The translations under genes were made by a program, and so were the position numbers. The notes under the pieces were generated by a model. That model was not told the DNA's origin. It saw only the letters and a list, made by a program, of their open reading frames with translations, and ran no database searches. Shown here piece by piece: positions 9,916 to 59,940 of a DNA stretch of 64,000 nt (within the stretch, counting starts at the first letter, position 1; the number at the start of each line of letters is the position of its first letter). The stretch comes from Antedon mediterranea (Eukaryota > Echinodermata > Crinoidea > Comatulida > Antedonidae): NCBI RefSeq assembly GCF_964355755.1, contig NC_092679.1, positions 14,932,932 to 14,996,931 of the forward strand, in the 5' to 3' direction.

Positions 9916-23651
<13,736 letters not shown>

Positions 23652-26384: not shown

Positions 26385-27250
26385 GGATGGTGCACCAGAT
26401 AATCTGTGAACCTATTGGAAACACAGTCAGACCTAACACAAGATCTTTGTACATCTAACAATTAATTCAAATGTGCTCTTTATCTTCCATTGTCAAATCT
26501 TTAACACTCCTTGTAATAACTTATATAGTCTCATTGGCATCTTCAAGCACGTCTGATGATGAAGAGTGTGCAACGTTTGGTTCTTTCTCTGGTTAAGAAA
26601 AACTAGATGTCGATGAAGTTGACATGTTTAGTACTAAATCTGATCCATTGGAGTCATCAAAATTAGGGATGGAGCCGTCTGTTCCATCTTTAGGGGAAGA
26701 AGTCTGGTGTAGTGGACATGCTGGGTTCTCAAGTTGGCATTGCGGTTGTTTATGGGATTAGCAAGCTGGTTCAAGTTTTGGCTTGTTTTTTTAATAAGGT
26801 CTTCAACCAAATTAGCAGCATCAAATCTTGTACATGTTTTTTTTTAAATGTTGAATTAGTTTTTCAAGAGGCTCATCTTTTGCTTCCCAGGCTTGTAACA
26901 CACATTCAGTTGGTGACGGATATGTCTCACCTAATCTAATAAGATTTTCACAACCGATTACACTTGCAAGACTTCTCCAATCATTTCCGCCTACCATTGT
27001 AGGATTTAGCCTTTCACACAATTTAATTCGGAGTGGATAAGGAACTCCTAATTGACATGATATTGGTGGATAACTCTGTGGCCAAGACATTTGACTTGGT
27101 ATTACATAGTTATGATTGGAAGGAGTTGAAAATGGATAGGAAGTACCAATGAAGTGTGAGCCTTCATATGTAGAAGACATCAGACTGTTGAAATAGTCAC
27201 TGTCTCTACTTGGAAGCCGAGTTTGACTTTGTGCTATCTGAAATCTGTGA
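26385..27250 (-). pseudogene. Decayed death-domain exon, copy of 48.3-kb exon
   Basis: This segment matches the last exon of the IPT-ZU5-death-domain gene (48,280-49,200) along its length, including the 3' flank (GTGCACCAGATAATCTG). The death-domain core is still readable (NDWRSLASVIGCENLIRL, PSPTECVLQAW). It is broken in two places seen directly. The A-run after EKLIQHLK is expanded and shifts the frame. Further on, a serine codon of the intact copy is a TAA stop (TTTTTCTTAACC). It lies just downstream of the stop codon of the neighbouring ZU5/DD gene, which has its own intact death-domain exon. Use as an alternative truncated exon cannot be excluded. Confidence 0.8.
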
Positions 27251-27427
27251 CCTTGATGTTAAATGTTTGGAGTTTGGATTCTTAAGGTTTTCTTCCTGTG
27301 ACTCAAAAATGGACATCAATACGGAAGTTGACATACTAATCCAATCTGATCCATTTTGAGTTGAAGGCTCATCTATCTTTAAACATATGTTGGTTGTCCT
27401 GGCTACTGGTTTCACCTGTCAATGCAC

Positions 27428-30111
27428 CTATGACATTGTGGTCGAGGTATTGGCAAGCTGATTTGAGTTTTGGTTTGTTTCCTTAATATAATCCTCAACC
27501 AATTTGGCAGCACCAAATCGTTTACATGTTTTTAAATGTTCAACTAGTTTTTCAAGATGTTCATCTTTCGCTTCCCATGCTTGTATCACGCATTCAGTTG
27601 GTGATGGAAATCTCTCACATAATCTAATGAGATCTTCATGATCAATTACACTTGCAAGCTTTCTCCAATCATTTCCATCTGTAACTGCTGGATTTAGTAA
27701 AGCACACAATTTTGAACGAAGTGAATTGGGAATTTTCACAGGAGATAATACTGGTGCCACTAGAGGTAGAACATTGTCACTATGTGATGAAGATATTTGA
27801 CTTGGAACTTTATCATAATAAATATGAGTATTAGAAGGACAGAAGGATTCTTCATTATACCGAGATGATGATGGCATCTGACTAAGAGAACATTCACTCT
27901 GAAAGGCAAAGCCACTGTCTCCTCTATCAAGAGAAAGGCTACTTAGTGGTTCGATTGGTAAGGATGTCTGTGTAGTTGGTCTGACATTTGAAGCTTGTAC
28001 AGTTGGTCGGACGTTCGAAGCTTGTATAGTTGGTCTGACGTTTGAAGACTGTGTAGTTGGTAAATTGGGTTTCTGTTTTTTGTAAAAAGAAAAAAATTAT
28101 ATAAAAGTTGAAATTAATTAAACTAAGAACTTCATACAGGTCTACATAAAGCATTATGATTTACACGTTTATCAAATTGAAAGTACAGTGCATTTTGATA
28201 CAGGTAATGTATAAAAAAACTTTTATTGGCTGGCTTTCTACAATTGCTTTTTAGGACACAATAAATATTTTAAAGAGCCTATGTTTTATATTTACAAGAT
28301 ATAAATGTGAATTGATTAATGGACGAACTTACTTTGAGTCTATTTGTGAATTCTAGTTCAACTTCATCAAAGCCATCTTGTTGAACAGATATTTGACAAT
28401 GAAACACAGTCAAATTATCATCATTCTTAAACGTGTATTGGCAGCTACCACAATCTCTCCTATACAGGCTTTTTATAGTCTGATAATAAAATAAACTTGG
28501 TTAACAGTAGAGATGATAGAATAAAAATAGCAATAACTAGATCTGTATTAATCAGTGACAAAAGTGTTTAATATACTCATTTTTTATTTCATTACAGATA
28601 TATTGTCCCCTAAAAACATAAATTCACGGCCTTCACAGTTTTAGAAAGTAAATGGTTAAATATAACCAAAATTCCAGCCAATTTGACTATTTCTTTTTTG
28701 TTCAAAGTGAATAACTATTATTAGACATTAAAATGGAATATTCAACAAAACATTAAAAACATTTTTTTCAGGGGGACAATATGAGGCAGACGATGTGAGA
28801 GCTATCAAGGTCAAAGCAAAAAATTAAAAATATCCTACATAATTTAAAACACTTGATAACAAACCAATGATGGATTTAGAAAGGTTATAATCACATACTG
28901 TAAAAAACTACTGTAACATACCTGTTCCTTTTTTTTGGTTTTCCTAATCCAACCATCTTCAGCTGTTATATTAACTTTTACACTTGAATCACATCTGAAA
29001 AGCTCAACATTTAACTTGTGAGTCATCTGATGTCTGCCTTCTTTTTTCTGTTCTCTTTCAACTTTCTGATAAACATATCAATAATAATTAAGCAATAGGA
29101 GATTTGTTGCACTATCTATACACATTAATAAAAGTTTTTATGTAACTAGGTCAAAAGTAAATTTTTAGCAAGCTTTAAAACCAACATTTCTTACTCAATG
29201 CTGGTCATTTTTAGGTTATGTGCTTTCGAAAAATAAGTTGGTGGTATTTGCTCTTCTTAAGGAGCACAAAGAATATTAAGAAAGGCAGAATACTTTCAAT
29301 TATGTTGACAAAAACGTGTGCAGAGTCACATTATTATTGATGAAAAACGACTGTTTTCAGATTGAAATAAAAGTAGTAGTCGACCTACTGTTGTAAGGTC
29401 ATCTCTTTCACCATGACAACAAATGTGAACTTCCTGGAAATCCTGAAAGTCAGCAAGTTCATTTGCGTAAACTACGATTCGCATAAGTTTAACACAAATT
29501 TCTTTTCCTGGTTCTGGGATTATAACATAGTCAGTAAAACTGTTTACAAATAGGTATCCATATTTCTTCTTGAGAAAGAGTATTGGAGATGTTGAATCAT
29601 CGTCTTGGTTGTGTTTCACTTCCTCCCAATCTTTATCTTCATCTGGAATTAAGATTGTAATAATTAACAAACTTTTGCAGGCAGCTGCAATTTTTATGAA
29701 TATTACGATAATAATAATAATAATAACAATGCATGCTCTATACTTACCAGGTTCAGCATGACTTGAATAAAGCTGAAGAGGGCAGTCTTCCTGTTTTACA
29801 GAATGAGGAAACATAATCAAAACACGTCCTTGAAACTTATAACGATTTGGAAGACATGTGATAATTGGAGCAATGCATCCTTCAGTTGAATCTTGATGTG
29901 GCACATTAGAATAATTCGAGTTAACATCCAATCCGATTTCTACAACATCTCCTTCTGGTATGGCCTTAGGTGGAATTATTAATTTAACCCCAGTATTCAA
30001 AAGAGTCAGACATGCGCCATAGGAATCCACTTTTTGCCTATTGGTGAATTTGCCCAACTCAAGTTTACCAATTCCTTCTGCACACTCAAGATTACATTGC
30101 TTGTGCATCAT
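27428..30111 (-). CDS. ZU5-UPA-death domain protein, five coding exons
   Basis: Exons are 29748-30111, 29389-29642, 28922-29065, 28333-28479 and 27428-28072, with GT-AG sites and agreeing phases, giving 517 residues. Residues about 28-125 form a ZU5 domain (LIIPPKAIPEGDVVEIGLDV, APIITCLPN, VLIMFPHS). Exons 2-4 give the rest of ZU5 and a UPA-like domain (FHCQISVQQDGFDEV). A linker follows with four 9-residue repeats (TIQASNVRP, TVQASNVRP) and GDSGFAFQS. The death domain is about 417-499 (LNPAVTDGNDWRKLA, PSPTECVIQAWEAKD). ZU5-UPA-DD occurs in UNC5, UNC5CL, PIDD and ankyrins, where ZU5 packs on UPA and DD. There is no membrane segment, so a cytosolic signalling adaptor is likely. The first exon has an acceptor at 30,131, so a 5' exon exists; no IPT exon was found upstream. 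A non-coding first exon near 31.87-31.97 kb is possible. Confidence 0.85.
28601..28781. mobile_element. MITE with TATTGTCCCC ends
   Basis: The ends TATTGTCCCCTAAAAAC and TTTTTTTCAGGGGGACAATA are inverted. The same family is seen with both ends at 55,682-56,010 and with at least the right end at 50,580-50,850 and 33,681-33,714. Internal words recur (AGCCAATTTGACTA/AGTCAAATTGGCTGCCAGCC). This copy lies in an intron of the 517-aa gene. Confidence 0.75.
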
Positions 30112-30859
30112 GCTTTTCTTTTCACAATAAACTGAAATGAAAATTCATCAAAAATGGTATGAAAAATAGATTAAATAATAAATTACTAAATTTAAATAAG
30201 AGATAATCATAATCATTTCATAAAAAACACATCATCTTGGCCTTTCAAACAAGCACAAATGTTTTGGTATTTCCGGGAGCAGAAGTGATGTTACATATTC
30301 TTCAAGACCTTTGAAATGACACCAAACACGGCTATATTACGATTATGATTCAAAATGTGATTATACATAATCATACATGACTAGTTTGATATCTATACAC
30401 CATACAGTACATGACAGTACATGCCAACACTGCTGTTTTGGCCAGGAGACTCCTGTACTTTAGACTCTTGTACATCAGGAAGTGTTATACAATTTCTGCA
30501 AGTAGAAATTAACTCGTTCTTACAGTTCATAGGAAAAAGTTCTTACTAATTTGCAGATCCAAATAGTTTATCTAATTGAAACAATAGGCTATTGTATAAG
30601 ACTTCCTGATGACTCACTTCAATATAACTGTGTCACTTATGTTTTATATTTCGCCTGAAGAGTGCAGCCAGCTACATGCTGCATGGTCATACGAAACAGA
30701 TTTGTAGCGATTAAAACAATGAAGTAACCAAGTTTTCTGCTGTTTTTTATTTTTATTTATGCTCTACCTTGGTATTGAGCACTCTATCCTAACGGTCTGA
30801 TACTTTCAACCTGAGTATGTATATATATAATCAAAAGGCAAATTACTAAAAAATAATGA

Positions 30860-33175: not shown

Positions 33176-33959
33176 TCACGCTGCTGCTATAGCCCGCTAC
33201 GTCACACGAGATGACTCATTTATTAGATGAAATCTAGTTATAGTACTACTACACTTTGACATTTTTGCTAAAATGGAAACTCGATTATAATTTATAGGTA
33301 TCAGCTGCATTTCTGGTATTTATGAGTCCCATGACAATACTGTATTTTGCTGTCAGATAATCATTGAATTATTATCAAAACAGTCCATGAAAGTTTTTGT
33401 TTGTAATATGATACTTCACACTTGAAGTATCTAAGGCGTGATGAAGTGACCCCCAGACTTGACCTTAGCAATAAAATAAACTAAATTGAGTCTGTTTCAT
33501 ATCAAAGTTATTCACTTCTGTAACAAAATTTAAAAAGAGAAAAGAAACGTTTAATTATAACTCAAAAACCACATTGTCTGACAGACAATTGAAGTATTTT
33601 TTGCTTTTAATTACATTTTTTCAGGTAAAATAACTATTATGTGACAATAAAATTACACATTCAAAAACAAATTTAAAATAAAAAATATTTTTCAGAGGGA
33701 CAATATATCTTTAAAACTGTTACGTCAATAAGCGAGCAGCGTTTTTTGTAAGAAATATTTCTTGTTATTGCTATCTACCACAAGAAATTGGAAGCCAACG
33801 AACAAATAAAGGTTGTTACAAAAATAAATCGTTGATATTGTAATATTTTAAAAAATTACAAATTTAAATATCGACAAAGAGAAAGCAAATTGACCTTTTA
33901 ATTCCGATATTACAATATAGTTGGGGAGCCAGAAATATGTACCTTCTGAATAGTATGTC

Positions 33960-35175
33960 AACAAAAATATTCCAATACACCCAGTAGTCTCGATATTACG
34001 CTCCTTAATCAATTCATCTCTTTTATCTGGCATTTTTCCTGATGCTTTGAAAATTATTGGTGTTATAACTCCACTATTAAAGAAATCTACATTAGATCCT
34101 CATTCTTTTGCTAATTTGTCTAAAGTTATCGAGAAGGTAGTTTGTTCAATTTTGGTTAAATTTTTAAATCTAAATAATTTATTCGATCAGTCAGCCTATA
34201 GAAAGGCACACAGCACGGAATCTGCTGTACTGAAAGTAAATAACGATATTTTGCAGGCCCTCGACAAGGGACACTGTACAGTGTCTGTATACCTGGACTT
34301 GTCCGCGGCCTTCAATACTATTGACCATTGTATCCTCATAGATCGACTTTCAGACTTAGGTCTTTCTGGTACAGTGTTGGCATGGTTCAACTCTTACATA
34401 ACATCGAAAAAACAGTCTGTTAGAGTGGAATCAGCTATCTCCGATCCTGTTTCTATAGATTTTGGTGTCTCCCAAGGTTCCACCCTGGGGCCCATTTTGT
34501 TCTTAATTTACATGCGCCCCCTCGGTGATATTATTCACAAACATACAATCAAGTATCACATTTACGCTGATGATACTCAACTGTATACTTCAATCCAGAG
34601 AATACCACTGAGTCAATCCGCATCCTAGAGGCATGTATTGATGATACGTACATTCGTGGCTGTCTTCCAACATGCTTCGCTGTAAACACCGATAAGACTG
34701 AAGTCCTTTACATAAATTCCAAACGTCATGCAAATATGCCCATAATTGAAACCATTCGTGTGGGAGACGCCTATATCATTCCATCGTTTGAGGTACGTAA
34801 TGTCGGCGTAACATTTGACTCCGCTTTATCCATGAATAGGCATATCACCAATATTAGCCGAGCAGTATCTTTTCAACTCCGGAACATCAGGGTAGTTAGA
34901 CGTTTCTTAAACGAGGATACTACATTAAAGCAAGTGCATGCCCTAGTAACATCCAGATTGGACTAGTGTAATGGAGTTCTTTATGGATTGCCTCAAACAT
35001 CTATTAGAAGACTTCAACTACTAATGAATAGTGCTGCCCGTCTCGTCACGTCACTCGGACACCTAAATTTCAACATATCACCCCTGTTCTCCGTCTCCAT
35101 TGGCTCCCTGTTGAAAAGCGTATTGTTTTCAAAGTTCTGTTATTTGTTTTAAATCCATTCATCATTTGTCCCAGC
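33960..35175 (+). pseudogene. CR1/L2-like LINE, left part of a split copy
   Basis: Reverse-transcriptase sequence is clear on the plus strand: LDLSAAFNTIDH, FGVSQGSTLGPILFLIYM and YADDTQLY within 34,047-34,628. The downstream thumb and C-terminal region continues in shifted frames (VNTDKTEVLYINSK, GVTFDSALSMNRHI, LHWLPVEKRI). The copy is 5'-truncated with no endonuclease, has at least one frameshift after 34,600, and has a TAG in place of the Tyr codon in the usual LDYCN motif near 34,966. At 35,175 it is cut by the hAT-like insertion and resumes at 41,985. Confidence 0.88.
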
Positions 35176-48346: not shown

Positions 48347-51300
48347 TCAAATGTTATTTACTTTATCCTCCATTGTCAAATCTTCAACACTCCTTGTAAT
48401 ATCTTGCATATTCTCATTGGTATCTACAAACACGTCTGATGATGAGTGTGGAAAGTTTGGTTCTTTAAACTCTTTCTCTGGTGAAGAAAAACTAGATGTC
48501 GATGAAGATGTTGACATGTTTAGTACTAAATCTGATCCATTGGAGTCATCTAAATTAGGGATGGAGCCATCTGTTACATCTTGAGGTGAAGACTTGTGTG
48601 AACGTGTTGTGTTCTCAAGCTGGTTGTTCCTGGTACTGACATTACCTGTGGGACATATGGCATTGCGGTTGTTTATGGGATTAGCAAGCTGGTTCAAGTT
48701 TTGGTTTGTTTTTTTAATATGATCTTCAACCAAATTAGCAGCATCAATTCTTGAACATGCTTTTAAATGTTCAATGAGTTTTTCAAGAGGCTCATCTTTT
48801 GATTCCCAGGCTTGTAACACACATTCAGTTGGTGATGGATATGTCTCACCTAATCTAACAAGATTTTCACAATCAATTACACTGGCAAACATTCTCCAAT
48901 CGTTTCCATCTGCCATCGTAGGATTTAGCTTTTCATATAATTTAATGCGGAGGAAATAAGGCACTTTTAATGGACATGATATAGGAGATTGTGGTGAGAA
49001 AATTGATGGATGGCCATATGGATATGACATTTGCCCTGGAAATGTATAGTTAGGAGGTGGTATGCGAGGGTGGGAAAAGTTGGGACCAGTGGAGTGTGAC
49101 AATCCTTCATTATACACAACTGTAGATGACATCTGACTGCGGAAAGATGCACTTGCATGGCCACTGTCTGTACTTCGAGTTTGACTTTGTTGTATATCTG
49201 AACTCAGCCATCTGCTAGCTTGCACTTGTGATTGGTTTTCTCCAGTTCTGTTGTCATCAAGAACATTAACGCCTCTCAGCGGTGCTGTTGGTAGATCTAA
49301 GTTCTATCCACAAATTTGCAAAACAAATTATACATAAGAAAATGTAAAAATGGATATAATAAAATCAATACAGGTCTATAATCAAGTAATAATTATTATC
49401 GATTTAACAAATTAAATATAGAATTTACAAATTTTGAAAATGAAAATTCTGAAATCATTGACAAAACCTATTGGCAGACTTAACCATGGAATAAATCTAG
49501 GATCTTAGAGGAGGCGCTGTACAAGCCAGTTCTTAATGGTTTGAGCTCAGCTTCTGGATCTGAAGCCCAGGGTTTGAGAATCATCAATATCATTGGTTTT
49601 TAATAGTTGAGGCAATATAGTTGTGAGAAAGTATTTAGAGTGTTAGGTTCATCTAGGAAATAAGTTATTTATCTTGCAAATACAACTTACTTTAACTCTA
49701 TTTGTGACTACTAGTTTTGCTTTATCAAAGCCAGATTGTTGAACTGATATTTGACAATGGAACTCATTGATATCACCAACATTTTCAAATGCATATTGGC
49801 AGCTACCAATATCCTTCCTCCACAGGTTGTTTAAAATCTGAAAATAATGGTAACAATAGAGATAAAGCAATTACTCTATACAGTATATTAATGGTATTTA
49901 TTTTTTAATACTTTAAAAAAGAAAAAATTATTTATCCAAAGGTAATTCCTTATTATTTTTCTATGATAAAATAAATGTTTGTCTACATACTGTAGTTGCG
50001 CTAGATCAGGATAAGGCTAATCACCCTGATGAGTGACGCAGTAGAAAATATTTTATTCCTTAATCTATATTTTTATTGATCAAAGAAACTACAACACATA
50101 CCTGTTCCTCTTCTTCTGACTGCATAATCCAACCATTTCCAGTTTTTACATTAACTGTTACACTTGATTCACAGTTGTAAAGCTCAAATCTTAACAAATG
50201 AGTCATCTGACGTCTGTCTTCTTTTTTCTCTTCCTCATCAATAGCCTGTATGATACACAAATCATGTAAAATTGATATCTAGTAAAATTGATAAATTTTA
50301 CTAGATATCTGATATCTAGTAAAATTGATAAATTTTACTAGATATCTGATATCAAGTAAAAAAAATCAAGAGAATGTGAATTGTTTAATGTGTTGCAATA
50401 GTTGAGTCAGGAGCACTGTATCGCAACTGACATGCTCCATGGTACTGGTGGTAGAGCAAGTTTTCTCGTATAGAGGACTAAAACTGTTCGTTTAGTAGTA
50501 GGTATACAATTGCCTGTGTGAACTATAAATATTATTTGTGACCAGTAGCAGGGTACCCCGAAGTACCTCAAATGCTTAAAGATATATTATTTTCTTGAAT
50601 ATGACACTTTAATGCCACATAATAGTTAATATTCACTTCGACCAAAAATGTTATTTAAAGCAAATATAGTCAAATTGGCTGCCAGCCAATGGGGTTTTTG
50701 TTGAATTTAACTGTTTATTTTGTCATTTTATAAGTGAAAACAGGCGATTTTTTTTTCTATGGAAGTTATTAACTTGGTTAAAACTACAAAATGGCCTATG
50801 CAAAATCTGATTTTATTAATCTTCATTTTTCATGTTTTTGGGGACAATACATCTTTTAATGAAGGGCTCAATAAACAATAGTAAAAGTTCCTTATCTATA
50901 AAATTGTGTTTACCTTATTTAAATAATAATCACAGCTAAATCTTGAGAAACTATATTAAAAACAACTGGAGAGCCAAAACAAAATGTGCAATAGAAAATA
51001 GGGGTTCATACAGTAAGTTTGTATGTATCTGAGCTTTAATTTACTTGAAACACGAAAGTAGATAACTTTTACTAAGCCTACCTTTTTAAGGTCATCTCTG
51101 TCACCATGGCAGTGTATGTGAATTTCTTGGAAAGTCTGACAGTCATCAAGCTCATTTGCATAAACAACAATTCTCATATATTTAGCTTGATATTTTCCTG
51201 ATGGTAGCGTAATAATAACAAAGTCAGTAAAATGATTTACAAATAGGTAACCATATTGATTCTTCAGAAAGAGTATTTGAGATGAATCCTCTTGATTGTG

Positions 51301-54300
51301 TTTGACCTGCTTCCAATCTTTTGCCTCATCTAGAATTAAAATTAATATTCATTAGCAATCAAATGTTAGGTTGTTATTAGTCTATAGTGTGTTCTAATCA
51401 TAAATGGTCGAATTGATGGTGTTGTGATGTGAATTAATGCAGATGTTTGTGACAATTATGCAGTGGTTGCTGATGAATTACGAACCGATACTGATATCAT
51501 GAAGATATCGGGGACTTTTGAGCTCACACCTACTGGTACTCATCCACAGGTTTAAAGTTTCAATTGGACATGCACGGGCGGTCGCAGGACTATTTGAAGG
51601 GGGTTGCCCAAGAGGGCCAGTAATACTGAATATTTGCGCCACAGGCCACCCCCCCCCCCCCCATGGTGGTGGGAGAATTTTTGTTAAATGACACACCTAG
51701 ATGGCCGGAAATGGTACTCTCGCACGTAAAATTCATGATAAATAGAAATGACAATCTATATCGGGCTACAGTAGCAAACAGATCATATCACGCCTGGTTT
51801 TTCCGCCCGTAAAACACAAGCAACAAACAAAAGGATAACATTTTTTGCGTTCAATGCGAAGGTCAGAGGCGGTCCCCGACGAAGGTACTTCCGGTAAAAT
51901 GTAATAAATTCTAGGAATTAAAATCAATTAATACAAATTAATAACTATTATCAATTAATAATTAAAACAATTTAGAAAAAAATGTAAAGCTGCTGCTATA
52001 AATATATTGAGCAAAACGTTAAATTGTATTATTTTGAAATAAATGCTAAATAAGTCAGTAAAACCCCAATATCCAAAATTCATTTTCATTTATCCACTAT
52101 AAACTGTACAACCACACTCGAGAAAAGAAAATATGATCGAAATTTGCAGAAAGAAGCAATTAAACACTGTTTTTCCTTCGGAACATTCGTAATTATTAAG
52201 GAAATTCGCCCAAATATTACGGACGTAGGGAAATGAAGATAAATATATGGTACTACGGAAATACTTAAATGATGGAGAATCCCCGGCAAAATGCAATGAT
52301 TATGGAGAAATGAAAGACCCATGACGGGATTTACCACGAACACATGGACACAAGCAATCCAAACATTCAACAAAAACTCTGACTGCCGGTAAATTATGCA
52401 CGGTATTGTTGACTGCAGTCTGTCAATTTACATAGGCCTATAGTCTTTTCAAACCCTGGTCGACTTCTATAACATTAATAGTTAATAATTTATATAATAT
52501 GATGAAATCTAAATTTTAATTAGTGGCAGAAAAAAACATTTAGTATGACATTTAGGGTGTTGCCCGGGCAACTGGGGCAACACCCGTCTGCCCCTGACAT
52601 GTATGTTGACACGCCAGTGAACGTATGACCTTTGTAATTCAGTGCACATGGCCAGGCATAGCGTTGGTAGCTTAGGCCTAGCCTAAATCCTATATTCCTC
52701 AAATTAAGGCTGGTGGCTTAGTTATAGGACCTACAGTAGGTCCACCTGTATTACTTAAATCTTTATTTATAATAACTAACTCTATAATTTACAGTTCGAA
52801 ATGCCTTTTACTAAATTTTAATAAATAATTGCTAGGTCATCCTCCGCCATGATTTTAGTATTATGACATCATACGTCCACTTGTACTCAGTCACAGAGCA
52901 AACAGCATTTTTGGCAGTTGACTTAAAAGTCATAAAAATTACATCATAGGGTGAACTTAGTGAATGTGCGAATCGAAAAGTTTAATTCTTTTACTTGAAA
53001 ATAGTATATACGTACCAGGCTCAGAATTACTTGTATAAAGCTGAAGAGGGCAGTCCTCCTGTTTTCCACAATGAGGAAACACAATTAATACAGGTTTCTG
53101 AAATCTGTAACCATTTGGAAGACATGTTATTATTGGAGCAATGCACCCTTTATTCAAATCTTTATATGGCAGCTTTGTATAATTATCCAGAGAGTCCACA
53201 GCCAATCCGATGTCAGTAACTTCTCCCTCTGGTATAGCCATTGGAGGAATTATTAACTGAACACCAGTATTTGGAATCTTCAAACGTGCGCCAGACGAAT
53301 CCACTTTAACACTTGGAATATTCCTCACTACAGAATCAACTTCGTCTTCTTTACTTGGTGGACAGATAGGCTTTCTGTATTCCACAGGACTTACAAGTGT
53401 TGAAGTTGCAGAGCAGTATCCGCTAGAAACTGAATCTTGAGTATACAAAAAACGTTGGCATGGAGATAAACATTGGATGGCACAGTCTGTTTCAACCTCA
53501 CTTTCAAGAACTTCAATAATCGTCATACTCGTTTTTGATTCATCACAATCAATCTCACTCTCAAAACCTTTACAAACAGTACCTAAACTGTCATAACCAC
53601 TATCTTCTGATTTACAAAATCTTTCTTGTTGAATCTTTATAAATTTATTCTGACCAGCAGTTTCGGGTGAATGAACCCTTCGTAGATTATTGGATAACCT
53701 TACATCTGACCTGTTAGGTTCATTAATGGCCTCAGCCTTCTGAAGTGTTTTCTTTTGCAGATTTGTGGATTTGCTAGACTCCAGTTCACTACAACCAGTT
53801 TGTCCTTCATCTGCAGAGTCTTGAGGACTGTACTGGCAGTGCTTCATGGTCTTCTTCTTCTTCTCAGAAGTGTTTTGAAGACTGGAGTACATTTTCATTT
53901 GTTCTTCAACTGGAATATCTGAAATAATTCAAAATATGATCTGTAATAATCTGGGATGCGACTGGTTTTCTTTTAATGAACGAAAATATTCTCCCCATTC
54001 CCCCTTTACCTAAGGCATCGACTGCCTAATAATGTGGGGTTTAGATAAATCAAGTTTTTTGGGGGGAATTCAAGGGGTGGTAAGAGAGAGTGGGGAGTGG
54101 GGTTGGAGAGGGAGGAGGGGTGGATCCAACTCAGCCCAGGTTCCTCCTAAATATTTAAAAAATACAATAGAAAAGCACATTATAAATTCAGCACTTCATT
54201 TGCTAAAATTGTAGGTGTTAGGTCCCCACTACCACTACTACTTTATATAAAAACCTGGCGCCACCACTGCTATTACAGATACAAATAACTTATCACTTAT

Positions 54301-55522
54301 CACAAAGACAGATATAAAAATATAATATAAAAATATATGATAACAATAATTACTATAGTACAATCTTAAAATTACAGTTCATAACTATTTAAATTAAAAA
54401 TGAAGTTCATTACTAAATATCTTATTAATAATTGTTTTTATTGCAACAATTATTGTAGACAGTACTGTATTCATTATAGATCTAATTTACCTCTTGAGGT
54501 CATCATTAAAATTAACATATAAAGGTATCAGTTATACTTACTCTCATTGGTTAATGAAGGAACATAGGTAAACTGTAGTATATTACTGAGGATACCATCT
54601 GAGGATCTCTTAAGCTGTACACCAACTTTTACCTTTGAGGTAATTTTCGCATCGGAGTACGATGGACAATAAAAATGAATTGTCTGAAATAAATAAAAGA
54701 AATTAAATGATTTAAAAAGCACACAAGAGTATCAAAAATACCCACCACATATTGGCCCCCCAGCCCATTATTTGTGCTTTCATGGTTGCTGGATTTTACC
54801 CCTTACCCCAACTCCACAACTAAACATCCACACCAACCTGAAGGCCATTTTGTCCAATTTCATAAGCAATAACGTTTTTTTTTTATTTTTCACAATTTAT
54901 TTGATAATAATATTAATAATAATACAGTAAATAATAAAGAGTTTTGATAGAGTTTTTACTTTAGTGAATATGTACTTACATTGCTAATAGTTCGTTCAAT
55001 TTTGGCTTGTTTTTTCCATCCAGTCGTTCTCTCAATGAAATAAACTTCAATATCACCTAGAACTGTTGATATTTTTATATTGTAGTACACAAATAGTAAA
55101 TGTTTTACAGTGGTGTAACATAGTTGGGAAAAGGCCACTGGTTTAGCACTCCTAAGAGGCCCTCCAACGCTGGGGAGAGTTGCATTATTGGACTGCTCAT
55201 GCTCTGGCGCCCGGTCATAGGTTTAGCCAGTGAGCGGTCATAGCCGTTACACGGTTACACCACTTGTTGGACGTTAAGAATATTTTATTAGTTTAAGAAT
55301 TATTGACTGTTCTATATTATTCAGGCCTATATAGAGAGACTTGAGAGAGACTTTTTAATCACCATTCCCCCTTCCCTACCACAAACCATTTTGCTACAGT
55401 ACTATTCTATTTTTGGCCTGCTTACCTTCCTCCAATGAGTCTACTGACACTGTAGCAATAATAATTTCATCACCAGTAGCTTGGCCTGAAGTAACACTTA
55501 AACTCTTCAGTTCCAAATTCAT
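48347..55522 (-). CDS. IPT(Rel dimerisation)-ZU5-UPA-death domain protein
   Basis: Exons are 55426-55522, 54980-55062, 54542-54683, 53016-53918, 51082-51329, 50102-50245, 49691-49837 and 48347-49303. All are GT-AG and in phase, giving 906 residues. Residues 1-102 match the Rel/NF-kB dimerisation (IPT) domain: LKSLSVTSGQATGDEI, GDIEVYFIE, TIHFYCPSY, VGVQLKRSSDG, LQFTYVP. A basic KKKKTMKH (127-134) follows, where Rel proteins have their nuclear signal. Then come DSGYDS (213-218), ZU5 (from about 312; LIIPPMAIPEGEV, APIITCLPNGY), a UPA-like region (to 588; FHCQISVQQ), DSGHAS (634-639), a death domain (about 702-782; DGNDWRMFA, PSPTECVLQAW) and an acidic, Ser-rich tail. Three in-frame stops just before the first ATG show that no Rel DNA-binding half precedes it in this exon. 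It probably acts as a cytosolic or nuclear signalling protein. It is paralogous to the 517-aa gene. Confidence 0.9.
50271..50350. repeat. Tandem perfect palindrome in intron
   Basis: GATATCTAGTAAAATT, the spacer GATA, and AATTTTACTAGATATC form a 16-base perfect inverted repeat. It is present almost twice in tandem with a period of about 40 bases. It starts about 25 bases upstream of the exon 50,102-50,245 acceptor and could extrude as a hairpin close to the splice site. Confidence 0.85.
50580..50850. mobile_element. MITE of the TATTGTCCCC family, intronic
   Basis: The right end ATGTTTTTGGGGACAATACATCTTT matches the family at 28,601-28,781 and 55,682-56,010. The interior shares TAATAGTTAATATTCACTT and GTCAAATTGGCTGCCAGCCA. 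The left end (AAAGATATATT) has lost its CCCC block. Confidence 0.65.
51480..52630 (-). repeat. Long interspersed repeat, inverted copy at 61.8-62.7 kb
   Basis: In reverse complement it shares with 61,840-62,700 the blocks GGGTGTTGCCCC, GGATTGCTTGTGT, TGCATTTTGCC, TATTTATCTTCATTTCC, TTTCTGCAAATT and CCTGTGGCGCAAATA. At 52,558-52,588 GGGTGTTGCCC and GGGCAACACCC are inverted. A C-run (51,648-51,661) and CCATGGTGG lie near the other end. No coding capacity was found. It sits in intron 4 of the IPT-ZU5-DD gene. Confidence 0.7.
55104..55262. repeat. Second copy of the repeat at 1.7-2.0 kb
   Basis: TTTAGCACTCCTAAGAGG, CCCTCCAACGCTGGG, GGACTGCTCATGCTCTGG and TTTAGCCAGTGAGCG occur in the same order as at 1690-2040. 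It lies in intron 1 of the IPT-ZU5-DD gene, between the first two IPT exons. Confidence 0.75.
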
Positions 55523-56536: not shown

Positions 56537-59500
56537 ATTATTATTATTATTCACTTTTATTTCAAATATCAAAAAATTGACCAAAATTACAACTCGTGGC
56601 TAAGAGCCAAATTGCGTGTAAAATACATGTCATATCAAAAATATAAATATATATAAAAAATATGAAAACAAAAAAAACAACAAAGAAGGGGAGAGCAGTC
56701 GCAAACTAGCAGGGGAGAAAATTAAGAATTCAGTAATTTGATGAAGTAGGGTATAGGGCTATTGGTAAATCTGGATGTTTTAGACGCTAGCTGGGTAATT
56801 TTGTTTTTATTTCTTAAATTCCTACCATGACAGCTATGTCTGGTCGGTGGGATTAAATCAGCTGTTTGTTTAATTTTGGGGAGATACTCAGCGAACTTGC
56901 GACAATGCTCCACCCTTCTTTGAGCCAAAGTCTCTAATTTAAGAAATTCAAGGGCACCAGAGTAAGAAAAGTAATCATTGCCTAACATTATACGGCAAGC
57001 CCTCTTTTGAACATTTTCAATACAATCGCTTAATCTACTAGACAGGCCAGAATGCCAAACAACATCAGCATACTCAACAACTGGTCTAATGTAACCACAA
57101 AAGGTCAATTTAAGCTCTTCAATGTTAAAACCAAATCGTTTTAGTGATCGTAAAAAGAAAAGTTTCCTGGAAGCTTTAGTGATGATGGAATCAATATGAC
57201 AGTCCCATTTAAGGTTGTCTTGAAAAAAAACTCCCAGGATCTTGGCTTTATTAACATATTGGAGCTTATCAGTTCCCAAGTGTATGTCAACGTGTGAAGG
57301 TTGGGTAGAACTGAAACACACCTTAAGGGCCTGACATTTTTTGGGGTTAAGCACTAAACAGTTGTCGTTACACCAGCGGAAAAAAGAATTAAGATCATCT
57401 TGTAAAAAACCAGGCAATGAGAGCTTACGATTTTCACAAAATGTAAGATCATCTACATATTTCAGATACTTAGTTTTAGCATTTGTACCAGCATCGTTGA
57501 TCATGATCTGGAAACATAAAGGGCCTAACTTGGTTCCCTGTGGGACACCAGCTTTTAAGTAAGAGTAATTAGATAAGGTACCATTATATTTGACACACTG
57601 CATACGCATAAAAAGAAAATCACACAACCATGGTACCAAAGCCCCCCTGACACCAATATCAATGATCTTATTAACAAGGATGGTATGGTCGATAAGATCA
57701 AAGGCCTTGGAGAAATCAGTAAGAACCATGGTACCAACATTGTGCTTATTCTCAGCACCTTGACAGAGATAATGCACCAAGTGGGTCAGGTAATGAGCAG
57801 TAGACAAACCCTTAACATTTCCAAACTGGTTAACATCGATTTTTGAACTTATATCTTGTAAGATCCAGTCAGTGATAAACTCCTCAGCTACTTTGGCAAA
57901 CACAGAAGTAATGGAGATAGGTCTGAGTTTGTCAATAGTAGGAGGCTGAACCTTGGGCACAGGGACTACAACTGCCTTTTTCCACTGAGAAGGGACAATG
58001 CCTTCAGAAAAAGAACAGTTGAGTATATCACAAAGTGGTTCACAAAACTCCATGGCAAATAATTTAACAATTTTGGGTGGGACCAAATCTGGTCCGCAGG
58101 CCTTGTTTTCTTTAATAGATCTTAATTTTTTATAAATATCCCAAGGATGAAGTTTAGGTGCAGGTTTGTCAGAGGGAAGGAATGCAGGGAGTTGAGTTTT
58201 ATTTAGAAAAGGGATGTGAGCACTAATGTTAGTAAACAAGTCATTGATGACATTAGCAATGGATTTATGATCCAATGGAGAGATTTCAGGAACTGGTATA
58301 TTGAGATCGATTTTCTTAGTGTTTGTCATAACTCTGACCTGTTGGTGCCATTTACCTGGGTCAGTTTTTTGCAGGTGTCTAACTCTATCTACATTAAATT
58401 TTACTTTAGCTTTAATGATTTCCCTCTTGACTTTGTTTCTGCAAGCTTTCCAATGGGTTAAGTTATTGGATTTAAACGCTTTTTGGCGTTCAGAAATAGA
58501 ATTTCTGATATTTTGTGTTAGCCAAGGTTTATCAGTATTGTGCGTTTTAATATTTTTCAACGGGAAAAACTTATTAATAGCAGTGATCAGTTTGTAATAG
58601 AAAGCATCAACTTTACTCTGTGTAGAAATGCAGCTATAAATATCATTCCAATTCTGAGATACAATCCAGGTGCCAAACGATCTTATTCTGGTATCATATA
58701 AGGGACGAACACTTATAGATTTGACAACATTTTTGATAGCTTGAACTTTAGGTTTCCATAAAATACAGATGTGGTCACTAAAACCAAGAGGAGACATCGC
58801 TTCTGGGGTATGGTATTTAGTTTCAAAATTAGTCAAGATGAGGTCTAATGTAGCAAGTTCACGGGTTGGAAAATTAACAATTTGTTTTAAACAGTTATTA
58901 CGTAAAATGTAGTTAATGTTCATTCTGTTGAAATCGCCCATAATGCAAAAACCAGTCTGAAGTGATCTAGAACGAATAAGGTCTATCGTTTCACAAATAT
59001 GCCGCTCAAGAAGAAGTTGATATGGGGAGTCTGTTGTGATGTAGATAGCACAAACAACGATTGATGACATTCCTCTTGGTAGACGAGAACATTTTAAGTT
59101 TATCCAAATGACTTCCAATTCAGGTGGTACAGGGATGTCAAGGATTGCACAATCAATGTTATCCTTCACATAAATTGCCACACCGCCTCCACGTCGATCC
59201 TCTCTACATTTGCCAAAAAAAGAATATCCTTGAACATGAATTTGAGCATTACATATATGAGGTCCATACCAGGATTCAGTAAATACTCCGACATCAACCC
59301 CTTGGGTGTTTAATAACAAACTCAATTCATCATGTTTATTGCAAAGTGATTGAGCATTGGTAAGTAAAAACAAAGGTAGTTGGCAAGAAGATGGTCTATC
59401 CTTGGCACCCACATTATTTGATAATGGGATGTTTATCAGTTGTCGATGCAGAAAATGAGTAAAATTTTTTCTTCTTTTATTAGAGTTAGGCAAAGAAGCA

Positions 59501-59940
59501 TAATAACTAATTCTCACTGGTATACGTCGATGAATATGAGAACCACCACGTCTTCCTCTCTTGCTAGGCCGAAGCCTAGGCCTGGTAGGAATCCAGCTGT
59601 TAGTGCTACCAGGCGTGAGTTGAGAACAGCAAGGCATACAACTGTTAGTAGAGCAAGTAGAGCAGGCTTGGTCCGGCATAGGCCTAGGCCTAGCAGATTT
59701 CATCGAAAATAAGATGAAAATCAGGAAATGAATCGAAATGTCCGGAAAAAAAGCAATGATTAAATCCACTAAACAACAGCAAAATTACAGACATAACACA
59801 ATACGACATCAAAAAGTTAACAAAACAACAGCAAAAAAATCAAAAATCATGAGAAAATCAAGGAGGTCGTCAGCTAGCTCAGCGCCCTCTGTAGTATTAT
59901 TATCAACTCTGCTTCAATACATTTTTCAATAATAAGCAAA
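56537..59940 (-). mobile_element. LINE with intact single frame
   Basis: The 3' end is an (AAT)n microsatellite (56,536-56,560, plus-strand ATTATT), typical of CR1-superfamily LINEs. The coding frame is 56,722-59,769. The 5' end is placed only roughly, before 59,950, because no target duplication was found. It lies between the promoter of the IPT-ZU5-DD gene and the divergent small gene at 60.3 kb. Confidence 0.8.
56722..59769 (-). CDS. LINE endonuclease/reverse transcriptase, 1015 aa
   Basis: One uninterrupted frame. A Cys-rich, basic N terminus (CSTCSTNSCMPCC, then RPSKRGRRGG) precedes an apurinic-type endonuclease from about residue 132 (LTNAQSLCNKHDEL, TESWYGP, RRGGGVAIYV, GDFNRMN, GFSDH). 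The reverse transcriptase follows (RPISITSVFAKV, LTDFSKAFDLIDH, AGVPQGTKLGPLCF, YVDDLTF) with a C-terminal region (YADVVWHSGLSSRL, ENVQKRACRI). The catalytic box reads YVDD where CR1/L2 relatives often have YADD. The product nicks target DNA and copies the element's RNA into it. Translation may begin at Met23 instead. No lesion was seen, so this copy may be young or active. It belongs to the CR1/jockey side of non-LTR elements; the exact clade is not certain. Confidence 0.93.
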   Translation of the reverse strand: MDLIIAFFPDISIHFLIFILFSMKSARPRPMPDQACSTCSTNSCMPCCSQLTPGSTNSWIPTRPRLRPSKRGRRGGSHIHRRIPVRISYYASLPNSNKRRKNFTHFLHRQLINIPLSNNVGAKDRPSSCQLPLFLLTNAQSLCNKHDELSLLLNTQGVDVGVFTESWYGPHICNAQIHVQGYSFFGKCREDRRGGGVAIYVKDNIDCAILDIPVPPELEVIWINLKCSRLPRGMSSIVVCAIYITTDSPYQLLLERHICETIDLIRSRSLQTGFCIMGDFNRMNINYILRNNCLKQIVNFPTRELATLDLILTNFETKYHTPEAMSPLGFSDHICILWKPKVQAIKNVVKSISVRPLYDTRIRSFGTWIVSQNWNDIYSCISTQSKVDAFYYKLITAINKFFPLKNIKTHNTDKPWLTQNIRNSISERQKAFKSNNLTHWKACRNKVKREIIKAKVKFNVDRVRHLQKTDPGKWHQQVRVMTNTKKIDLNIPVPEISPLDHKSIANVINDLFTNISAHIPFLNKTQLPAFLPSDKPAPKLHPWDIYKKLRSIKENKACGPDLVPPKIVKLFAMEFCEPLCDILNCSFSEGIVPSQWKKAVVVPVPKVQPPTIDKLRPISITSVFAKVAEEFITDWILQDISSKIDVNQFGNVKGLSTAHYLTHLVHYLCQGAENKHNVGTMVLTDFSKAFDLIDHTILVNKIIDIGVRGALVPWLCDFLFMRMQCVKYNGTLSNYSYLKAGVPQGTKLGPLCFQIMINDAGTNAKTKYLKYVDDLTFCENRKLSLPGFLQDDLNSFFRWCNDNCLVLNPKKCQALKVCFSSTQPSHVDIHLGTDKLQYVNKAKILGVFFQDNLKWDCHIDSIITKASRKLFFLRSLKRFGFNIEELKLTFCGYIRPVVEYADVVWHSGLSSRLSDCIENVQKRACRIMLGNDYFSYSGALEFLKLETLAQRRVEHCRKFAEYLPKIKQTADLIPPTRHSCHGRNLRNKNKITQLASKTSRFTNSPIPYFIKLLNS

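Follow-up and report, generated by a model that had tools for sequence, protein, structure and literature searches.

PIDD is known to cleave itself at HF/S, and CARD8 and NLRP1 at SF/S, at the border between the ZU5 and UPA domains (PMC3210808). The two halves of CARD8 remain associated until UPA-CARD is released by proteasomal removal of the N-terminal half (PMC9213247). Mammalian UNC5CL (ZUD) was reported to bind p65 and to restrain NF-kB, according to PMC13255311, which cites Zhang et al. 2004. Marine invertebrates are known to shuffle immune domains, ZU5/UPA fusions included (PMC8195603).

Analysis of a window of 64,000 nucleotides of Antedon mediterranea (contig NC_092679.1) showed a gene in which a Rel-type dimerisation (IPT) domain appears to be joined to ZU5, UPA and a death domain (DD). 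No protein joining ZU5, Rel homology and a death domain was found in the open-licence full-text literature, in agreement with the original prediction that the architecture had not been described, and the IPT-ZU5-UPA-DD combination was not mentioned in the immune domain-shuffling surveys PMC8195603 and PMC2575513. The architecture is new and is built from known parts; an unpublished or merely deposited case is possible.

Gene model and domain content

The gene model consisted of eight minus-strand exons (55522-48347) that gave one reading frame of 904 amino acids, with GT/AG borders, compatible phases and all splice sites intact. The matches to RHD_dimer, ZU5 and Death all exceeded the curated Pfam cut-offs. 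The predicted joining of these domains in a single open frame was therefore confirmed, and its length was corrected from 906 to 904 amino acids. The exons and the features within them are listed below.

17 nt upstream of the exon 1 ATG, minus strand: possible acceptor TTTTATAG, near the ancestral Rel exon border
55426..55522, minus strand: exon 1, ATG and first part of the Rel-type IPT (aa 1-32)
54980..55056, minus strand: exon 2, middle of the IPT (GDIEVYFIE...), whose phase-1 entry intron is positioned as in the Rel genes of the genome
54542..54683, minus strand: exon 3, C-terminal half of the IPT (VGVQLKRSSDG...LQFTYVP), preceded by a phase-0 intron
53016..53918, minus strand: exon 4, disordered linker and ZU5
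53842..53865, minus strand: basic cluster EKKKKTMK (aa 124-131), putatively NLS-like
53587..53604, minus strand: DSGYDS (aa 211-216), which fits the beta-TrCP phosphodegron DSG-hydrophobic-x-S
53053..53307, minus strand: ZU5 domain (aa 310-394; Pfam, E 8e-18)
51082..51329, minus strand: exon 5, end of the ZU5 sandwich, predicted cleavage site and start of UPA
51226..51234, minus strand: HFT (aa 439-441), aligned with the self-cleavage sites of PIDD (HF/S) and CARD8/NLRP1 (SF/S)
50102..50245, minus strand: exon 6, UPA
49691..49837, minus strand: exon 7, UPA
48347..49303, minus strand: exon 8, linker with a second DSGxxS, death domain, Ser-rich tail and stop
within the exon 8 linker, minus strand: the second DSGxxS, DSGHAS (aa 632-637)
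48707..48988, minus strand: death domain (aa 692-785), modelled as six helices and closest among solved structures to UNC5H2/UNC5b

The N-terminal exons had been read as a Rel-type dimerisation domain, and the Pfam search agreed: RHD_dimer (PF16179) matched aa 8-101 in the whole protein (53 bits, E 3e-14) and residues 1-105 alone (57 bits, E 2e-15). In a search against solved structures, residues 1-105 resembled RelA, RelB and p52/p50 (best E 4e-9). The identity between this IPT and Rel IPTs was 26-36%. In an IPT tree it grouped with p65, but its branch was very long (3.45 changes per site), and the placement was not relied on. The long branch and the low identity are what IPT exons that are decaying or artefactual, and functionless, would give. 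This explanation is very improbable, as the splice sites are intact, 105 stop-free codons are expected by chance with a probability of about 3e-4 at the local base composition, and the core residues of the IPT are preserved enough for the E-value of 2e-15.

Continuation of the same frame into ZU5, UPA and a death domain had also been predicted. ZU5 and the death domain (aa 707-780, E 3e-7) were both found by Pfam in one frame, while the UPA model (PF17217) was silent on the protein, its UPA being too diverged for the model. The UPA was tentatively assigned from the collinear homology of aa 310-555 with an UNC5CL-like protein encoded elsewhere in the genome (BLAST E 7e-14), whose own UPA was detected by Pfam (E 5e-8). 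The C-terminal part matched UNC5B across ZU5 and the death domain in the search against solved structures. The UNC5CL-like protein is encoded at C3:36.96 Mb by a single-exon gene with one transmembrane-like segment, ZU5, UPA, a death domain and THFT.

A tandem paralog was found in the same window, together with a decayed exon and two retroelement sequences.

27428..30131, minus strand: tandem paralog, ZU5-UPA-DD; five exons found, of which the first is entered in phase 1; cleavage position NSFTD
26476..27258, minus strand: last exon (linker and death domain) present a second time behind the paralog, decayed by stops and a frameshift
33954-34628, plus strand: reverse transcriptase fragment between two ZU5 genes
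56722-59784, minus strand: LINE ORF, almost complete, with endonuclease and reverse transcriptase, immediately upstream of the IPT exons and on the same strand

ZU5 and the death domain of the paralog shared 68% identity with those of the gene, and an IPT was looked for upstream of the paralog and not found. Comparison of the two copies gave a dN/dS of about 0.3 in ZU5, the first part of UPA and the death domain, which indicates purifying selection. No such selection was seen in the linker, and the second part of UPA was without clear constraint (pN about equal to pS). The death domain was modelled from the two window copies with fair confidence (pLDDT 73), and the p100 and p105 death domains ranked below UNC5H2/UNC5b at Foldseek E-values above 0.001; on this model, the death domain is of the UNC5 type.

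The junction of exon 3 and exon 4 is the weakest link of the predicted gene, and was drawn on phase, proximity and a consensus donor. Exon 3 ends in the consensus donor GTAAGT in phase 1, and the phase-1 acceptor of exon 4 follows 623 bases further on the same strand. If the locus held two transcription units, exons 1-3 would form a short gene, or the relic of one, that encodes only the IPT, and ZU5-UPA-DD would belong to another gene starting in or upstream of exon 4. Such a division would agree with the possible ATGs at about aa 112-114, with the paralog that has no IPT, and with the stop that is met within 5 codons when exon 3 is read through, behind which AATAAA lies at about 100 bases. 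The fit in phase between donor and acceptor on one strand, and the position of the exon 3 donor at the ancestral Rel site, argue for a single gene and make two units quite unlikely.

Origin of the IPT exons

The DNA-binding half of Rel proteins had been noted as missing, with in-frame stops before the ATG, and both statements held. In a genome-wide search, no RHD DNA-binding half (PF00554) was found in the gene and no such exon near it on C10 at ~14.99 Mb, even at E<=10, and in-frame TAA codons stand immediately upstream of the ATG. The IPT fragment starts exactly where RHD-N normally ends, as would be seen in a true Rel/p105-type gene whose DNA-binding exons were missing from the window or the assembly; against this stand the stops in frame, the lack of any RHD-N match near the gene and the LINE ORF just upstream of the IPT exons, and we regard it as extremely improbable.

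The genome contained six RHD_dimer genes, the chimeric gene included, and the genome-wide search placed RHD_DNA_bind exons at four NF-kB/Rel genes, one on C6, two on C7 and one at C10:22.38 Mb. The IPT at C8:7.015 Mb was rejected as a second case, as it reads by eye as NFAT with its own RHD, although PF00554 did not fire there. Because the other RHD_dimer genes are accompanied by RHD_DNA_bind or the NFAT RHD, the IPT of the gene is, within the sensitivity of the search, the only one in the genome without a DNA-binding half. A further tblastn match to Rel IPT in the window (18633-18746, plus strand, E 0.003) was judged to be noise, with no splice-bounded or continuing exon around it. The Rel-class genes were three (C7:0.734 Mb, C7:0.747 Mb and C10:22.38 Mb), and the p105-type gene on C6 carried a glycine-rich stretch. 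The two Rel-class genes on C7 (733.9-735.9 kb and 746.3-749.1 kb) are in tandem, with IPTs 85% identical and frames that stop right after the IPT.

In all three Rel-class genes, the IPT lies on three exons and is entered in phase 1, with introns after the first G of G-D-D-I-x-V (phase 1) and between R-Q and V-A-I-V (phase 0); the p105-type gene and the Rel-class gene at C10:22.38 Mb show a phase-1 exit from the IPT. The IPT of the chimeric gene has introns after the G of GDIEV (phase 1) and between ISN and TIHF (phase 0) and is left in phase 1, which are the Rel-class positions and phases (1, 0, 1), and its ATG sits at the start of the ancestral IPT exon. The first of these introns (between G and D, phase 1) is absent from the p105-type gene on C6. 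The ZU5 exon is entered in phase 1 in both the gene and the tandem paralog. The introns and phases show the textbook 1-1 signature of exon shuffling, by which the chimera appears to have arisen; judged by the intron pattern, the likely donor of the IPT is a Rel-class gene and not p105. A Rel-class gene would have supplied its three IPT exons, which form a module with phase-1 introns on both sides, and these would have been placed in front of an UNC5CL-like ZU5-UPA-DD gene at its phase-1 entry. Such an insertion explains the IPT intron pattern, the phase-1 exit and the phase-1 entry of the paralog that has no IPT. The original comparison with p105 was upheld for the order of the domains and not for a derivation along p105 lines: since the IPT introns are Rel-class and the death domain is UNC5-type, the p105-like order appears to be convergent and not a result of descent.

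Cleavage site, linker and dimer face

HF[S/T/C] was present at the cleavage position in 23 of the 25 readable ZU5 genes of the genome; the tandem paralog has NSFT(D) and the UNC5CL-like protein THFT, and UNC5B is without the motif, with QLG aligned at this position. Self-cleavage of ZU5-UPA at HF/T is predicted from the motif and the family, with Thr as a plausible nucleophile. The PIDD-like gating by ZU5-UPA-DD that had been proposed is better supported through this motif. A large ZU5 expansion was observed on C4 (13.3-26.8 Mb), with >20 ZU5 exons, nearly all with HF[S/T/C] and many with Cys as the presumed nucleophile; it is possibly a FIIND-like immune family.

The motif DSG-hydrophobic-x-S is the beta-TrCP degron of IkB proteins. 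DSGYDS is located in the N-terminal half, ahead of ZU5, and a motif of this form was present in 0.2% of shuffled linkers, a figure uncorrected for the motif having been spotted by eye before the test, and one to be read with the commonness of short degron motifs in mind.

For the dimer interface, eleven dimer-face positions of p50 were picked from established knowledge of the interface; PMC8904830 names Asp254, Tyr267 and Phe307 among them. A single one, the counterpart of p50 E265, was retained in the IPT of the gene, with replacements at R252, D254, Y267, L269, D302, H304, R305, A308 and V310, on an alignment that is loose in the dimer-face half (26-36% identity), so that single positions may shift by one or two. 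The four Rel/NF-kB genes of the genome retained nearly all 11 positions. The basic DKVQKED loop, which contacts DNA in Rel, was replaced by an acidic loop. It had been proposed that the IPT pairs with Rel proteins; with 1 of 11 interface positions kept, this was weakened. From these residues, ordinary Rel pairing is disfavoured, and an altered homodimer or a surface for another partner may be formed. Because the dimer face is not conserved, the IPT is probably a docking or sensing domain rather than a classical Rel dimer half.

Pairing with Rel/NF-kB subunits would give DNA-binding-dead dimers, acting as a trap or inhibitor and gated by the closed state of ZU5-UPA-DD. The clear Rel-type IPT, the NLS-like cluster that follows it as in Rel proteins, and the UNC5CL-p65 interaction reported in PMC13255311 are consistent with such dimers, but the loss of all interface positions except E265, which contrasts with the other four genes, and the acidic loop leave them rather unlikely.

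Proposed switch and comparison with known systems

Our tentative preference, at somewhat below an even chance, is that Rel-class IPT exons were shuffled onto an UNC5CL-like gene and that the protein is a cytosolic, self-cleaving death-fold switch coupled to the NF-kB pathway. In this switch, ZU5-UPA would cleave itself at HF/T, as the motif and family suggest, and the halves would remain associated and hold the death domain closed, by analogy with PIDD, CARD8 and UNC5b. The IPT would probably dock onto, or sense, a partner from the NF-kB side. On NF-kB-pathway signals, the N-terminal half (IPT, DSGYDS linker and ZU5) would be phosphorylated and destroyed, and the freed UPA-DD could assemble with partners of the IRAK/MyD88/FADD type. 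The fuller version, a new class of innate-immune switch in which the Rel-derived domain senses or docks the NF-kB machinery, DSGYDS serves IKK as the site for marking the N-terminal half for destruction, and the self-cleaved UPA-DD is released, is speculative and on balance unlikely.

The gene joins two pathways already known to touch in mammals. As mammalian UNC5CL was reported to bind p65 (PMC13255311), the two parts of the gene are of kinds found in proteins said to interact, and the gene may be regarded as a Rosetta-stone fusion, a hint that the UNC5CL-p65 contact so reported is both direct and ancient. If a Rel IPT is indeed combined, outside a transcription factor, with a self-cleaving death-domain module, a single molecule would couple death-fold signalling directly to NF-kB status, and if the switch operates as proposed, NF-kB signalling would be turned directly into death-domain assembly within one polypeptide. 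The gene also offers a compact test of whether the release of ZU5-UPA through degradation of the N-terminal half, a mechanism known from inflammasome CARD proteins, is of general use and drives death domains as well.

Compared with NF-kB1/2 (p105/p100), the gene has the same order of IPT, basic cluster, DSG-type degron and death domain, but is without RHD-N, the glycine-rich region and ankyrin repeats; no Ank family was among the Pfam matches of the 904-aa protein between the IPT and the death domain. The IPT intron positions and phases are identical to those of the Rel-class proteins of the genome, which carry RHD-N and showed no ZU5, UPA or death domain in the stretches that were read. With PIDD1 it shares ZU5-UPA-DD with the HF/[S/T] site, but it has one ZU5 where PIDD1 has two, no LRRs, and the IPT in their place. 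The order of disordered N-terminus, ZU5, self-cleavage site (here predicted), UPA and death-fold domain is common to CARD8/NLRP1 (FIIND), in which the N-terminal half can likewise carry a destruction signal, whereas the gene ends in a death domain and not a CARD, and its N-terminal domain is a Rel IPT. UNC5CL (ZUD) is alike in having ZU5-UPA-DD and no netrin-receptor ectodomain; the UNC5CL-like protein of the genome also has HF/T at the cleavage position, and UNC5CL is reported to be linked to p65/NF-kB (PMC13255311). That UNC5CL-like protein differs from the gene in its single transmembrane-like segment and in having neither an IPT nor a degron linker.
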